Shown one piece after another: positions 5,094 to 43,753 of a DNA stretch of 64,000 nucleotides. The DNA lies in the NCBI RefSeq assembly GCF_000739595.1, contig NZ_BBJP01000002.1, forward strand, positions 1 through 64,000, read 5' to 3'. The notes beneath the pieces were generated by a model that was not told the origin of the DNA, made no database searches, and saw only the letters and a list, made by a program, of their open reading frames with translations. The first letter of the stretch is position 1; every line of letters starts with the position of its first letter. A program made the position numbers and the translations under genes. The DNA is from Halorubrum halophilum (GTDB lineage Archaea; Halobacteriota; Halobacteria; Halobacteriales; Haloferacaceae).

Positions 5094-5993
5094 ATGACCG
5101 ACGAACGCGACGACGACCGCCACGAGTTCTCCGCCGGGCAGGGCGTCGACGCCGGCTACGAGGAGTTCACCCTCGACCCCGAGGAGATCGACGCCGACCC
5201 GAACACGGTCGACCCCGTCGACTCCCGCGTCCTCACCGACATCATGGACAAGCGCAACGTCGAGAGCGACGCCGTCGACGTCGAGCGCCTGGTCGACGTG
5301 GGGCTGTCGTACATGGGGATCAACCGCTTCGAGGAGGCGACGGAGACGTTCGAGCGCGCCGCCAGCTTCGCCGAGGAGGACTCGCTGGACGCCCAGGAGG
5401 CGTGGGTGAACAAGGGCGCGGCCCACGCGGAGCTCGAGGAGTACGATCAGGCGATCGGGGCGTATCAAGAGGCGCTGCGCATCGACGGCGACTCCGAACA
5501 CGCCGCGACCGCCGAGACCAACCTCGCGTACGCACTCTGGGAGTCGGGGCAGGGCGAGCAGGCCCTCGAACACGCCGAGCGCGCCGTCGAGACCGACCCG
5601 CGCTTCGCGGAAGCGTGGTACAACCGCGGGTTCCTGCTGGTCGAGCGCGGGCTCGCCGAGGACGCCGTCAGCTGCTTCGACAACGCGATCCGCCTCGGCT
5701 ACCGGAGCGCGGGCGTCTTAGAGGAGAAGGCCCGCGCGCTCGAAGAGGCCGGCGAGCACGAGCAGGCCGAGGAGGTCGCTGACCGCGCCGACGAGATCCG
5801 CCGCGAGGCGGAAGAGCAGATGGTCGAGGAACAGACCGGCCAGGCACCCGGTCCCGGCGGGGCCCGTCAGGGCGGTCGCCCCGGAGCCGGCGGACAGCCC
5901 GGTGCAGGGGGTCGCGGCGGTCGCGGCGGGCAGGGCGGCGGCCGCGAGGAGCCGGAGCGAGAGCTCCAGGGCGAGGGGCCTGAGGGCTTCTGA
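5094..5993 (+). CDS. tetratricopeptide (TPR) repeat protein
   Basis: About 299 residues. The middle part (roughly residues 60-230) is a run of TPR helical pairs such as MGINRFEEATETFERAASFAEED, AHAELEEYDQAIGAYQEALRI and AEAWYNRGFLLVERGLAEDAVSCFDNAI. The protein should act as a scaffold for protein-protein contacts. The tail is a low-complexity Gly/Gln/Arg/Pro stretch (GGRPGAGGQPGAGGRGGRGG), probably disordered. A GTG seven codons upstream (5073) is in frame, but a CCCTTACG box near 5058-5066 better fits a leaderless start at the ATG 5094. The stop codon directly touches the ATG of the next gene, so the two are probably translationally coupled. Confidence 0.85.
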   Translation: MTDERDDDRHEFSAGQGVDAGYEEFTLDPEEIDADPNTVDPVDSRVLTDIMDKRNVESDAVDVERLVDVGLSYMGINRFEEATETFERAASFAEEDSLDAQEAWVNKGAAHAELEEYDQAIGAYQEALRIDGDSEHAATAETNLAYALWESGQGEQALEHAERAVETDPRFAEAWYNRGFLLVERGLAEDAVSCFDNAIRLGYRSAGVLEEKARALEEAGEHEQAEEVADRADEIRREAEEQMVEEQTGQAPGPGGARQGGRPGAGGQPGAGGRGGRGGQGGGREEPERELQGEGPEGF

Positions 5994-39034: not shown

Positions 39035-39373
39035 ATGCCCACCAAGACGATCGGGGTTCGCGAGGAGGTGTACGAGCGGCTCCGCGCTCGGAAGCGCGAC
39101 GACGAGAGCTTTACCGATCTCATCGATCGCCTGATCGACGAGAGCGAGGGCGACTGGCGCGACGGATTCGGATCGCTGTCGACCGAGGAGGCTGACTCGC
39201 TTCGAGAGGCCGCGGCCGCCTCGCGGGAGCGCTTCGACGAGTCGGCGGGAGACCGACAGACCGCAGCGATCGATCGGTTGGCGGGCTCCTCCGGCGACGA
39301 CCAGTCGGGCGACGAGGGTCGGACGGACGACGGCGCTGACACCGACGACGCCGACGGCGGGAGGTCGGCGTGA
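39035..39373 (+). CDS. vapB: VapB-type antitoxin
   Basis: A 112-residue antitoxin. The first half (KTIGVREEVYERLRARKRDDESFTDLIDRLIDE) matches the archaeal UPF0330/VapB pattern, a ribbon-helix-helix-like DNA-binding region. The second half is acidic, with a run of serines and aspartates (SGDDQSGDEGRTDDGADTDDADGG), longer than usual, and probably wraps the toxin. It overlaps vapC by four bases (GTGA). A TCTTTACATA box at 39001-39010 precedes a leaderless ATG, and autoregulation by the complex would be typical. Confidence 0.85.
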   Translation: MPTKTIGVREEVYERLRARKRDDESFTDLIDRLIDESEGDWRDGFGSLSTEEADSLREAAAASRERFDESAGDRQTAAIDRLAGSSGDDQSGDEGRTDDGADTDDADGGRSA

Positions 39374-39771
39374 CGCGGTACCTGCTCGACACCACGTTTC
39401 TCATCGACTACTTAGACGGCTCCGACGGTGTCCGACGGTTCCTCGAAGCACACGAGGACGGCGAGTTCGCGACGACCGCGATGAACTACAAAGAAGTCGC
39501 CGTCGGCCTCCGTCTCGACGACTCGTTCGACCCGGAGCGGCTCGCGTCCGCGTTCGGGTGGCTCGACGTGGTCCCGGTCGGGAGCGACCACGCCCTCGCG
39601 GCGAGCGCCTTCGAGGCGGAGCTGTACCGCTCCGACAACCACACGCGACGGGCAGTCGACGCGGCGGCCGCCGATCTGCTCATCGCCGGGGTCGCCGACG
39701 CCGAGGGCATGACCGTCGTCACCCGGAACGTCGACGACTTCGAGCGGTTCGTCCCGGTCACCGAGTACTGA
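39370..39771 (+). CDS. vapC: VapC-type PIN-domain ribonuclease toxin
   Basis: A 133-residue PIN domain. The acidic triad of the metal site is visible: RYLLDTTFLIDYLDG (first aspartate), NYKEVAVGL (glutamate) and AAAADLLIAGVAD (aspartate). RNVDDFERF near the end adds another acid. Such toxins cut RNA, often tRNA or rRNA, when the antitoxin is lost. The GTG start lies inside the last codons of vapB. Function as an active toxin pair is inferred from complete motifs. Confidence 0.9.
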   Translation: MTRYLLDTTFLIDYLDGSDGVRRFLEAHEDGEFATTAMNYKEVAVGLRLDDSFDPERLASAFGWLDVVPVGSDHALAASAFEAELYRSDNHTRRAVDAAAADLLIAGVADAEGMTVVTRNVDDFERFVPVTEY

Positions 39772-39842: not shown

Positions 39843-41156
39843 TCACTCCCAGTTGTGCAGCGCGTCCTGGAACACCTCCTCCACGTCCTCCTTCGTCACG
39901 GGCCGCGGGTTACACCGGAGCAGCCGCTGCTGACTCTCGACGGTGCTCTGGGCGAGCGCGCCGGTGTCGTCGACGGTGACCCCCGCGAGTTCGTTGAGCC
40001 CGCTCGGGAGCACGTTGAGGTCGCGCTGGAGCCGCACGAACTCCTCGCGGGCCTCGTCGGCGGCCTCGCGGGTGCTCATCCCGGAGGTGTCGGCGCCGAG
40101 CATCTCCGCCACCTTCGCGAACCGCGGCGGGTCGCTCGCGACGTTGTAGCCGAGGGTGCTGGCGGGCGTGAGCGCCGCGATCGTCTCCCCGTGGTACGTG
40201 TGGTAGTTGTTGCCGACGGGATACGCCATGGCGTGCGCGAGGCTCGCGCCCGCGGTGAGGCCCGCGATCGCGCCGAACAGCGCGCCCTTCAGCATCGCGC
40301 CGCGCGCCTCGATGTCGTCGCCGTTGTTGACGACGCGGCGCACGTTCGACGAGAGGAGGTCGATCGCCTTCTCGCTGAACATCTCGGTGAAGCCGGTCCG
40401 CCCGGCGTAGACGGGGCGGTCGGCGGGGTTCTCGGGGCGCAGCAGATCGTCGTAGCGGTGGGTGGTGTACCCCTCGATCGCGTGGCCGAGCGCGTCCATC
40501 GCGGTCTTCGCCGTGAGGTCCGGCGGCAGCGTGGTGGTGAGCGTCGGGTCGAGCACCGCGGCGTCGGCGCGGACGTGCGGGCTGGAGATCCCCTCCTTGA
40601 TGTTCTTCTCCGGCACTGAGAGGATCGCCACCGGCGAGATCTCCGACCCCGTGCCCGCGGTCGTCGGGAGCAGGATCAGCGGCGCGCCGGACTCGGTGAG
40701 GTCCTCGCCCGCGCCCGTCGGCGCGGCCACGTAGTCGAGCACGTCGCCGCCGTTCGCGATGACGGCGCGGGTCGCCTTCGCGGTGTCCATGCAGCTTCCG
40801 CCGCCCAGCCCGAGGTAGAAGTCGTACCCGTCGTCGCCCATCTCCTCGCGGACGAACGCGATGCACTCCCCGACCGCCTCGACGCTCGGCTCGCGCTCGA
40901 CGCCGTCGTACACGTCGACGTCGAGGCCGTCCGCCGCCAGTTCGTCCGCGACGCGGTCGGCGTGGCCCAGCGAGACGAGGTCCGGGTCGGTGACGATCAG
41001 CCCGCGCTCGTCGCCGTCGAGCCCGAGTTGCCCGAGCTGGTAACCCAGTTCGTCGGCCGCGCCCGCGCCGACGCGGACCGCCGGCATCTGGACCTCCCAG
41101 ACGGTCTCGGGCGAGAGCTCGTGCGGCTCGGCGGAGACGGAGCGCTCGTAGCTCAC
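39843..41156 (-). CDS. iron-containing alcohol dehydrogenase, hydroxyacid-oxoacid transhydrogenase type
   Basis: A 437-residue type III (Fe-dependent) alcohol dehydrogenase. The nucleotide site is YLGLGGGSCMDTAKA, the hinge is LILLPTTAGTGSEISPVAIL, and the iron ligands fall in DALGHAIEGYTTHRYDD and ASLAHAMAYPVGNNYHTYHGE. The insert DDLLRPENPADRPVYAGRTGFTEMFSEKAI resembles that of HOT/ADHFE1 enzymes, which oxidise 4-hydroxybutyrate to succinate semialdehyde. GTG 41156 overlaps the lactonase stop (GTGA on minus), so it is the second gene of a two-gene operon. A longer frame to 41828 is antisense-like and rejected. Confidence 0.88.
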   Translation of the reverse strand: MSYERSVSAEPHELSPETVWEVQMPAVRVGAGAADELGYQLGQLGLDGDERGLIVTDPDLVSLGHADRVADELAADGLDVDVYDGVEREPSVEAVGECIAFVREEMGDDGYDFYLGLGGGSCMDTAKATRAVIANGGDVLDYVAAPTGAGEDLTESGAPLILLPTTAGTGSEISPVAILSVPEKNIKEGISSPHVRADAAVLDPTLTTTLPPDLTAKTAMDALGHAIEGYTTHRYDDLLRPENPADRPVYAGRTGFTEMFSEKAIDLLSSNVRRVVNNGDDIEARGAMLKGALFGAIAGLTAGASLAHAMAYPVGNNYHTYHGETIAALTPASTLGYNVASDPPRFAKVAEMLGADTSGMSTREAADEAREEFVRLQRDLNVLPSGLNELAGVTVDDTGALAQSTVESQQRLLRCNPRPVTKEDVEEVFQDALHNWE

Positions 41157-41971
41157 ACCCCCCACCCCGGCTGGATCGCCTCGAACTGCTCGGGGTCGTG
41201 CCCGAACACGACCTCGGCGTCGTGGCGGCGCTCCAGCTCGCGGATCCGGCTCATGCTCTCGGCCCACTCGGTTTTCCCCCACACGAGGGGCCCGCCGAGC
41301 GGCGTCCCCGCCTCGTAGTTCTCGTCCATGTACACCTGATCGCCGGTGAACACGACGGTGCCCTCGGCGTCGAGGTGGATCACGGAGCCGGTGAGTCCGG
41401 GGGTGTGTCCGGGGAACCGGACGAACTCCAGGTCGGTGAAGTGTTCCTCGCGGTCGCGGTGAAGAATCTGCCAGTTCAGGTCGTGATCGAAATCCTCGAG
41501 GACGTACGCGCCGCTCCCCTCGTCTGTCTTCGCGCTGTAGTAGGCGAACTTGAACTCCTCCTCGTGGACGTAGACCGGCGTGTCGGTGCCCGCGAAGAAC
41601 TCCAGCCCGCCGGCGTGGTCGAGGTGGAGGTGGCTCTGGAACACCGCGTCGATGTCGTCGATGGAGTAGCCCGCCGCCTCCAGGTCGTCGTCGAGGCGGT
41701 GCTCGCTCGCGTCGTGCGGGTAGAAGGCCTGCACGAGCCCCTCGGGCCAGTGGCCGTCGGCGGCGTCGTGGTGCGAGCCCGTGTCCCAGAGGACCGTCGC
41801 CTCGGGATGGTCGATGATGAGATTCCACACCGGGATCTCGTCGTACTCGGTGTCGGGGTTCGGCTCGTCGTGACTCCCGATCGTGTTCGCCTCCATCATG
41901 TAGTTCATGTCGCAGTACAACCCGCCGCGATCGATGACGTGGACCTCAGCGTCTACCATACGGCCGGACAT
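41153..41971 (-). CDS. metallo-beta-lactamase-fold lactonase (AHL lactonase / AttM-BlcC type)
   Basis: A 272-residue MBL-fold hydrolase with the dinuclear zinc site FQSHLHLDHAGGLEFF (HxHxDH), a histidine in RFPGHTPGLTGSVIHL, an aspartate in VVFTGDQVYMDENYE, and the terminal histidine in EVVFGHDPEQF. The N-terminal HVIDRGGLYCDMNYMM and NLIIDHPEATVLWDTG are typical of N-acyl-homoserine and gamma-butyrolactone lactonases. First gene of the operon with the Fe-ADH. The start could be ATG 41971 or, four codons on, ATG 41959. A 12-bp palindrome lies six to seventeen bases upstream. Confidence 0.85.
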   Translation of the reverse strand: MSGRMVDAEVHVIDRGGLYCDMNYMMEANTIGSHDEPNPDTEYDEIPVWNLIIDHPEATVLWDTGSHHDAADGHWPEGLVQAFYPHDASEHRLDDDLEAAGYSIDDIDAVFQSHLHLDHAGGLEFFAGTDTPVYVHEEEFKFAYYSAKTDEGSGAYVLEDFDHDLNWQILHRDREEHFTDLEFVRFPGHTPGLTGSVIHLDAEGTVVFTGDQVYMDENYEAGTPLGGPLVWGKTEWAESMSRIRELERRHDAEVVFGHDPEQFEAIQPGWGV

Positions 41972-41976
41972 CCATC

Positions 41977-41988
41977 ATGAATATTCAT
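41977..41988. promoter_or_regulatory. perfect 12-bp palindrome upstream of the lactonase operon
   Basis: ATGAATATTCAT is fully self-complementary, just upstream of the lactonase start and overlapping the TTTATGAATA promoter sequence on the minus strand. A repressor bound here would block the start site. This is inferred from position. Confidence 0.5.
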
Positions 41989-42148
41989 AAACATGATCCC
42001 GGAACGGATTTCCGTCTCTCCGGCGCGCCGAGCGATATCGCGGCGCCGGGGCTCCGCGTTTCCGTCGAATCGTCGATTCGAGAAGGGCTTTGACTCCGGT
42101 CGTTCGGGCCGCGACACGCTCAGCGCGGGCCGCAGTGCGAGGAGGTCG

Positions 42149-43753
42149 CTACTCCGCCGGCCGCTCGTCGGCCTCGTCCAGCGTGATCTCGGTGACCTCG
42201 ACGATCCGGTCGTCGGCGAGCAGGTCCTCGACGACCTCGTCGGGCACGTCCTGATCGAGGTTGTAGACGGTGAGCGCCTCGCCACCCTGCGTCTCGCGGG
42301 CGTTGTACATCCCGGCGATGTTCACGTCGTGGTCGCCGAGGACGGTCCCGATGAGCCCGATGACGCCCGGCTCGTCGGTGTTGCGCGCGACGAGCATGTG
42401 ACCGTACGGGACCGCGTCGACGCGGAACCCGTCGATCCGGACGATCCGCGGGTCCTCGCCCGCGAACAGGGTCCCCTCGACCGCGATCGAGTCCTCGCCG
42501 TTGTGGACGGTGACGCGCACCAAGCTCTGGAAGTCGTCGGTCTGACGGGTCTTCGACTCGGTCACCTCGATGCCGCGCTCCTCGGCGAGCCGGGGCGCGT
42601 TCACCGCGTTCACCTGCCACTCCAGCGGCTCGAAGACGCCCTTCAGTGCGCTCGCGGTGACGAGCTCCACGTCCTCCTCGGCGATGTCGCCCTCGTAGGT
42701 CGCCTCCACCTCCGTGATCCGGCCGTCGAGCAGCTGCGCGGCGACCTTGCCGGCGGTCTCCGCCACGGCGATGTACGGCTTGATCCGGGGGAACGCCGTC
42801 TCGTCGACCGAGGGCGCGTTGAGCGCCGTCAGGACGGGCTCGTCGTCGAACGCCGCGAGCACCGCCTCCGCGGTGTCGACCGCGACGTTCTCCTGTGCGG
42901 CCTCCGTCGAGGCGCCGAGGTGCGGCGTCACGACGATCTCATCGACGTCGAGCAGCGGCGAGTCCCGCGAGAGCGGCTCCTCGGCGAACGAGTCGAGCGC
43001 GGCGCCCGCAAGGACGCCGTCGTCGACGGCCTCCGCGAGCGCGTCCTCGTCGACGATGCCGCCGCGGGCGCAGTTGATGAGGTAGCCCCCCTCGAGCTGC
43101 GCCAGTTCGTCCTCGCCGATCATCCCCTCGGTCTCGGGGAGGAGGGGCGTGTGGATCGTCGCGAAGTCGCCGCGCGCGAGCGCCTCGTGGAGGTCCTCGA
43201 CGAGCTCGGCACCGAGCCGGTCCGCGCGCTCCTCGGAGATGTACGGGTCGTAGACGACCAGATCCATCCCGAGCGAGTCGAGTCGCTTGGCGACCTCTTG
43301 GCCGACGCGACCGAGGCCGACGATGGTGAGCGTCTTGTTGTTGACCTCGGTGCCGAGGAACTCGCCCTTCGCCCACTCGCCGCCGACGAGGCGCCCGTGC
43401 GCCTGCGGGATCGAGCGCGCGACGGCGAACGTCATGGCGACCGTGTGCTCGGCGGCGGCCCGGACGTTCCCGTCCGGCGCGTTGGCGACGATGACGCCGT
43501 GGTCGGTGGCGGCCTCGATGTCGATGTTGTCGACGCCGATGCCGGCGCGCCCGACGATGACGAGATCGGAGGCGGCCTCGAAGACCGCCTCGTTCACGTC
43601 GGTCCCGGAGCGAACGATCAGCGCGTTGGCGTCGCTCACCGCGTCGAGCAGGGCGTCGCCCTCGACGTCGTAGTCCGTTTCGACCTCGTGGCCGGCGTCT
43701 CGGAGTCGGTCCAACCCCGCGTCCGCGATGGGGTCGGTCACGAGTACCTTCAT
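42149..43753 (-). CDS. serA: D-3-phosphoglycerate dehydrogenase
   Basis: A 534-residue enzyme for the first step of the phosphorylated serine pathway. The substrate and NAD domains run MKVLVTDPIADAGLDRL, RAGIGVDNIDIEAATDHGVIVANAP, TLTIVGLGRVGQEVAKRLDSLGMDLVVYDPY, CARGGIVDEDALAEAV and VVTPHLGASTEAAQEN (catalytic His with Glu). An intervening ASB domain leads to a C-terminal ACT domain (DEPGVIGLIGTVLGDHDVNIAGMYNARE), where serine feeds back. The frame to 43864 adds 37 foreign residues and was dropped. TATA GGTTAACC (43778-43785) suits the ATG. It works with serB at 55408. Confidence 0.96.
   Translation of the reverse strand: MKVLVTDPIADAGLDRLRDAGHEVETDYDVEGDALLDAVSDANALIVRSGTDVNEAVFEAASDLVIVGRAGIGVDNIDIEAATDHGVIVANAPDGNVRAAAEHTVAMTFAVARSIPQAHGRLVGGEWAKGEFLGTEVNNKTLTIVGLGRVGQEVAKRLDSLGMDLVVYDPYISEERADRLGAELVEDLHEALARGDFATIHTPLLPETEGMIGEDELAQLEGGYLINCARGGIVDEDALAEAVDDGVLAGAALDSFAEEPLSRDSPLLDVDEIVVTPHLGASTEAAQENVAVDTAEAVLAAFDDEPVLTALNAPSVDETAFPRIKPYIAVAETAGKVAAQLLDGRITEVEATYEGDIAEEDVELVTASALKGVFEPLEWQVNAVNAPRLAEERGIEVTESKTRQTDDFQSLVRVTVHNGEDSIAVEGTLFAGEDPRIVRIDGFRVDAVPYGHMLVARNTDEPGVIGLIGTVLGDHDVNIAGMYNARETQGGEALTVYNLDQDVPDEVVEDLLADDRIVEVTEITLDEADERPAE

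Follow-up and report, generated by a model that had tools for sequence, protein, structure and literature searches.

The gene pair and its probable promoter region

The window, by which we mean the whole analysed stretch of 64,000 nucleotides from Halorubrum halophilum, carries on its minus strand a lactonase gene followed by a gene for an iron-containing alcohol dehydrogenase (ADH) which resembles the hydroxyacid-oxoacid transhydrogenases (HOT). The features of the locus are:

41974-41997, minus strand: likely promoter/operator, AT-rich and palindromic, ATCATGTTTATGAATATTCATGAT, with a perfect inverted repeat ATCATG-N12-CATGAT and an AATATT centre
41153-41959, minus strand: lactonase gene, AhlS/GcL-like metallo-beta-lactamase fold, 268 aa, first gene of the pair
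39843-41156, minus strand: iron-containing (type III) ADH, HOT-like, 437 aa, second gene of the pair (PF00465/PF25137)
39035-39771, plus strand: overlapping genes for a VapB-like antitoxin (PF02697) and a PIN-domain VapC toxin, downstream of the ADH gene and convergent with it

Both open reading frames of the pair were confirmed on the minus strand, and the GTG start codon of the ADH at 41156 overlaps the lactonase stop codon as GTGA. This is the arrangement given in the first-pass annotation, whose upper limit of 41988 falls in the promoter region just outside the lactonase gene. A phosphoglycerate dehydrogenase gene on the same strand (42149-43750 region) ends about 190 nt upstream of the pair.

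Although the lactonase reading frame has its first ATG at 41971, we prefer 41959 as the start (MVDAEV..., 268 aa), because the methionine at this position is kept in at least 97% of 75 lactonase homologues and a TATA-like TTTATG (41991-41986) lies 27-32 nt before it. This spacing would fit a leaderless transcript of the pair. The TTTATG is retained in most relatives of the same genus. The palindromic stretch occurs once in the window and not at all in shuffled sequence; a similar stretch is found at the same-genus loci L064-L070 and L031, and the repeat is partly conserved in the genus. Since this palindromic and TATA-like stretch lies directly before the start codon and recurs in these relatives, the pair is probably transcribed from a promoter of its own. 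The inverted repeat is a possible operator for some regulator; when the neighbourhoods of the pair loci were compared across haloarchaea no regulator gene conserved next to the pair was seen.

Identity of the two enzymes

The lactonase matches Lactamase_B (PF00753, 6e-22) and contains the complete residue set of lactonases of the metallo-beta-lactamase fold (HxHxDH, a histidine, the bridging aspartate, the last histidine and a tyrosine close to the metals). Numbered from 41971 the residues are H114-x-H116-x-D118-H119, H189, D211, Y214 and H258, and they are kept in at least 97% of the 75 homologues. Among solved structures, AaL and GcL, both of them quorum-quenching lactonases, and also AiiB come closest in sequence and in fold; the predicted structure fits the GcL fold with a TM score of 0.85 (pLDDT 92). 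The best of all NCBIfam models is AhlS (163.1 bits), followed by AiiA (110.4) and AttM (109.9). The protein is far short of every curated cut-off for these models, the cut-off being 475 bits for AhlS (NF047976) and 390 bits for AttM/BlcC (NF045700), a model against which Agrobacterium AttM itself scores 486 bits. By these scores the window's lactonase is nearer to AhlS and GcL than to AttM/BlcC. Of the earlier designation "AHL/AttM type" the lactonase part thus stands, while the AttM label is loose.

The ADH has Pfam matches to Fe-ADH (2.5e-41) and ADH_Fe_C (7.6e-34). The metal-ligand positions D221, H225, H308 and H322 and a GGGS motif are conserved, and structure prediction gives, with confidence, an Fe-ADH-like fold. 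It passes no curated NCBIfam model; the best is the choline dehydrogenase GbsB with 256 of the 550 bits required, and 4-hydroxybutyrate dehydrogenase reaches 169 of 500. Its orthologues in the databases carry the name hydroxyacid-oxoacid transhydrogenase.

In the tree, the rooting of which is arbitrary, the haloarchaeal ADHs group with HOT and are separated by a 99/98 branch from BlcB, FucO and other Fe-ADHs; a Pelagibacteraceae relative of BlcB stands with BlcB on the far side. According to a survey of iron ADHs from 2016 two inserts are the mark of HOT, and all HOT proteins are said to have the second one (PMC5125639). Insert 1 (about 19 residues located between helices 5 and 6 and bearing a motif of the R-P-x-Y-x-G type) is found in the window's ADH and its haloarchaeal homologues and is absent from BlcB and FucO. 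Insert 2 (13 residues between helices 8 and 9) is absent from all haloarchaeal ADHs aligned, whereas all nine aligned bacterial HOTs of the clade carry it and have both inserts. Compared with HOT proper (cd08190; human ADHFE1), the window's ADH thus shares the position in the tree and the first insert and differs in lacking the second. The assignment to the hydroxyacid-oxoacid transhydrogenase type made in the first pass is right as to the side of the tree, with one of the two defining inserts missing. On these grounds the ADH is best called HOT-like: it falls short of the published definition of a HOT and is no BlcB either. R411 of a conserved RLL motif is common to BlcB and most of the aligned HOTs and is not found in FucO; it may be taken as only a lead for carboxylate binding.

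A second, shorter subfamily of haloarchaeal HOT-like ADHs, about 45% identical, was seen at L124 (152-1390), L125 (4992-6224), L047 and L048. These genes have no lactonase beside them; IclR-family regulators are adjacent on two plasmids and a sodium:solute symporter is nearby in one case.

Conservation and gene neighbours in haloarchaea

The pair was followed in 391 genomes of the class, counting proteins of at least 65% identity as the lactonase subtype and of at least 63% identity as the ADH. The lactonase was present in 68 genomes and the ADH in 77. In 64 of the 68 genomes with the lactonase the ADH gene is directly downstream, always in the same order and on the same strand, with an intergenic gap between -1 and +11 nt (the -1 overlap occurs in 18 of the 64). 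These adjacent pairs span 7 families and about 30 genera. The adjacency exceeds chance, so the objection foreseen in the first pass, that the genes might rarely be adjacent in other genomes, falls away. The chromosomal surroundings vary with the lineage: a ribosomal-protein region in family f4, AglF in f8 and f9, and serA/thrC in the window's genus. The pair thus persists or moves as a unit, and the close spacing, the taxonomic spread and the varied surroundings together indicate that a lactonase and an ADH activity are kept together. In the literature searched, most subscription journals lying outside its coverage, we found no published description of such a pair.

Several of the exceptions look like losses or truncations. 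In G304 an intact ADH gene follows a lactonase gene that has lost an internal part (L214, about 5456-5690), the N-terminal stretch of about 20 aa being fused to the C-terminal part; this looks like a loss in progress. In G310 the pair is interrupted by the end of the contig, and G308 has the lactonase alone at a serA/vapBC site (L086), where the VapBC-like pair adjoining it resembles the one at 39035-39771 of the window. Twelve genomes retain the ADH without an intact lactonase gene next to it, which suggests that the ADH is useful to some extent on its own.

A second AhlS-like lactonase subtype is widespread in haloarchaea (L015-L030), with about 45-60% identity to the window's protein; no ADH or other dehydrogenase neighbour was seen for this subtype (at most 60% identity). 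A topology test of the monophyly of the pair-type versus the solo-type lactonases gave a p-AU of 0.30.

A third enzyme is sometimes part of the operon. A gene for an SSADH-like (succinate-semialdehyde dehydrogenase-like) aldehyde dehydrogenase lies about 20 nt 3' of the ADH gene and on the same strand in Halobacterium hubeiense (pSTJ001), G030 and G077, that is, in two genera other than the window's (H. hubeiense and genus g3) and three sampled genomes in all; the SSADH may have joined the operon once. No such linkage is found in the window's genome. Elsewhere in it, where the first pass had proposed to look, are two SSADH-like genes (C91 and C96) encoding proteins 76% and 71% identical to the SSADH of the H. 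hubeiense operon.

Other neighbours were considered and set aside. TctA transporter, ribosomal L1/L10, BtpA and AglF genes are frequent at the pair loci, but reflect the local synteny of particular families. A minority of the loci have acyl-CoA ligase genes close by, mostly convergent with the pair and outside the operon. A class-III aminotransferase in g25, a conceivable GABA transaminase, fits best to the acetylornithine aminotransferase family; the GABA models score weaker and below their cut-offs.

A putative lactone pathway and its relation to known systems

We hypothesize that the pair is a catabolic module for small gamma-lactones which probably lets many haloarchaea feed on simple lactones, gamma-butyrolactone for example. 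The metal-dependent lactonase, judging from its fold and catalytic residues, would open a gamma-lactone, most likely gamma-butyrolactone, to the hydroxy acid 4-hydroxybutyrate. The HOT-like ADH would, according to its subfamily and gene context, convert 4-hydroxybutyrate to succinate semialdehyde. It could use free NAD(P)+ for this or work in the manner of animal HOT, where the cofactor stays bound and 2-oxoglutarate accepts the hydride. An SSADH-like enzyme would then yield succinate for the citric acid cycle, and with the SSADH-like genes of the window's genome the route from lactone to succinate is complete on paper. The genome also encodes homologues of a FAD/Fe-S protein that adjoins bacterial HOT genes, a weak hint that 2-hydroxyglutarate could be recycled. 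The first two steps were already proposed in the first-pass annotation; adjacency and SSADH genes support them, the substrates being what we infer.

Gamma-butyrolactone is the simplest fit for three reasons. Animal HOT converts 4-hydroxybutyrate to succinate semialdehyde (PMC5125639), BlcC acts on gamma-butyrolactone (PMC5924552), and Haloferax mediterranei given gamma-butyrolactone incorporates 4-hydroxybutyrate in its polyester (PMC3880725), so the ring of this lactone is opened in at least one member of the haloarchaea. The points against it are the weak model scores of the ADH, the SSADH being adjacent in three genomes only, the missing HOT insert 2, and the 12 genomes in which the ADH stands without an intact lactonase gene beside it. 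Taken together we hold gamma-butyrolactone/4-hydroxybutyrate to be the best guess, with somewhat more in its favour than against it. A polyhydroxybutyrate-derived source for the lactone route, also suggested in the first pass, found no support, as a PHA synthase III C model had no match in the window's genome, although the control is weak, since none of the control genomes scored over the cut-off. Moreover, polyhydroxybutyrate yields 3-hydroxybutyrate, not 4-hydroxybutyrate.

The most serious alternative, which we nevertheless think unlikely, is that the pair degrades the lactone of another hydroxy acid, such as gamma- or delta-valerolactone or a substituted butyrolactone, and that the ADH makes the matching aldehyde or keto acid. 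Lactonases of the metallo-beta-lactamase fold are promiscuous, the ADH scores weakly with the models for every named substrate, and the remaining neighbours vary with the lineage (the aminotransferase in g25, the acyl-CoA ligases in several). This is at variance with the SSADH-like enzyme being the sole co-oriented, abutting third enzyme in more than one genus, and with the grouping of the ADH with HOT.

It seems considerably less probable that the pair serves the catabolism of AHLs, the lactonase opening bacterial AHLs and the ADH oxidising the 4-OH of the N-acylhomoserine, for quorum quenching or scavenging. In sequence and fold the nearest characterised lactonases, GcL, AaL and AiiB, all belong to the AHL lactonases, and the acyl-CoA ligase genes near a minority of the pairs recall qsdA-qsdC of Rhodococcus (PMC6262395), but these ligase genes are mostly convergent with the operon rather than inside it, and quenching would make the dehydrogenase superfluous. 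The kinship with AHL lactonases says little, because BlcC cleaves AHLs too while the blc operon, which AHLs do not induce, serves the use of gamma-butyrolactone (PMC5924552).

Equally improbable in our view is a role in detoxification or housekeeping of lactones or semialdehydes that arise spontaneously, with the ADH reducing succinate semialdehyde to 4-hydroxybutyrate. The reactions of Fe-ADHs are reversible and the ADH survives without the lactonase in the 12 genomes mentioned above; the upstream lactonase and the downstream SSADH on the other hand indicate the oxidative direction. We give the least credence to a bolder version, in which an independently assembled archaeal blc counterpart with a one-insert, HOT-like, cofactor-recycling transhydrogenase would have ring-opened AHLs among its substrates and haloarchaea would eat bacterial signals.

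If the gamma-butyrolactone reading is true it adds the use of gamma-butyrolactone and 4-hydroxybutyrate to haloarchaeal metabolism and bears on the production of 4-hydroxybutyrate-containing polyesters. The pair also gives a direct and testable substrate prediction for the HOT branch outside animals, for which the activity was stated as unknown in the 2016 survey (PMC5125639).

Lactonase genes adjoin iron ADH genes in bacteria too. Among the matches listed by a nonspecific scan of genome contigs, few of which are haloarchaeal, a lactonase gene adjoins a HOT gene with both inserts (opposite gene order) at two loci:

L137, 2196-4302: lactonase-HOT neighbours of Actinomycetospora cinnamomea
L138, 1078-3185: lactonase-HOT neighbours of a Rubrobacter MAG

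The matches listed also include a Pelagibacteraceae genome (L181, 2956-4976) in which a BlcB-like ADH gene (48%) precedes the gene of a BlcC-like lactonase (56%), pointing to possible use of gamma-butyrolactone in marine SAR11. These pairs suggest that a lactonase and an Fe-ADH have been joined more than once. On plasmids of Mycobacterium dioxanotrophicus and Rhodococcus ruber YYL, bacterial HOT genes from the haloarchaeal side of the tree adjoin the gene of the FAD/Fe-S protein, presumed to be a D-2-hydroxyglutarate dehydrogenase, and have SSADH or monooxygenase genes nearby. Both strains degrade cyclic ethers via 4-hydroxybutyrate or similar acids. These neighbourhoods, like the lactonase-HOT pairs above, speak for the gamma-lactone reading.

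The AHL lactonases AhlS, GcL and AiiB are the best matches of the window's lactonase in sequence and fold, and the catalytic residues are retained, but the identity is only about 30% and the lactonase shares its operon with a dehydrogenase. The archaeal genes are named "N-acyl homoserine lactonase family protein" in the databases, which may mislead about their role. In qsdA-qsdC of Rhodococcus erythropolis a lactonase and another catabolic enzyme are likewise encoded in one operon; however, QsdA is phosphotriesterase-like and the partner is an acyl-CoA ligase, with no ADH mentioned (PMC6262395).

The closest parallel to the putative function is blcABC (attKLM) on pAtC58 of Agrobacterium fabrum, which takes gamma-butyrolactone via GHB to succinate semialdehyde (PMC5924552). 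The kinds of enzymes are the same, an SSADH, an iron ADH and a metallo-lactonase, and in Agrobacterium all three are in one operon. In haloarchaea the order is reversed to lactonase-ADH-(SSADH), the SSADH is usually unlinked, and no conserved regulator gene was seen beside the pair. The Agrobacterium operon is repressed by BlcR and induced by succinate semialdehyde/GHB; at the haloarchaeal pair only the palindromic promoter stretch was seen. A direct kinship with BlcC and BlcB, to which the first pass had likened the two proteins, was not borne out: identity to the Blc proteins is 26-29% for the lactonases (BlcC), 33% for the ADH (BlcB) and 37% for the SSADH, and BlcB is on the other side of the 99/98 branch. 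At identities of 37% or less and with this position of BlcB we found no orthology to blcA, blcB or blcC. In the tree as drawn BlcC does not group with the haloarchaeal lactonases, but forcing them together was not rejected (p-AU 0.26). With another ADH subfamily, a reversed order, low identity and no conserved regulator seen, the haloarchaeal pair would work like blc and yet not be a blc operon; as far as sequences tell, it would be a blc-like pathway assembled from different versions of the parts.
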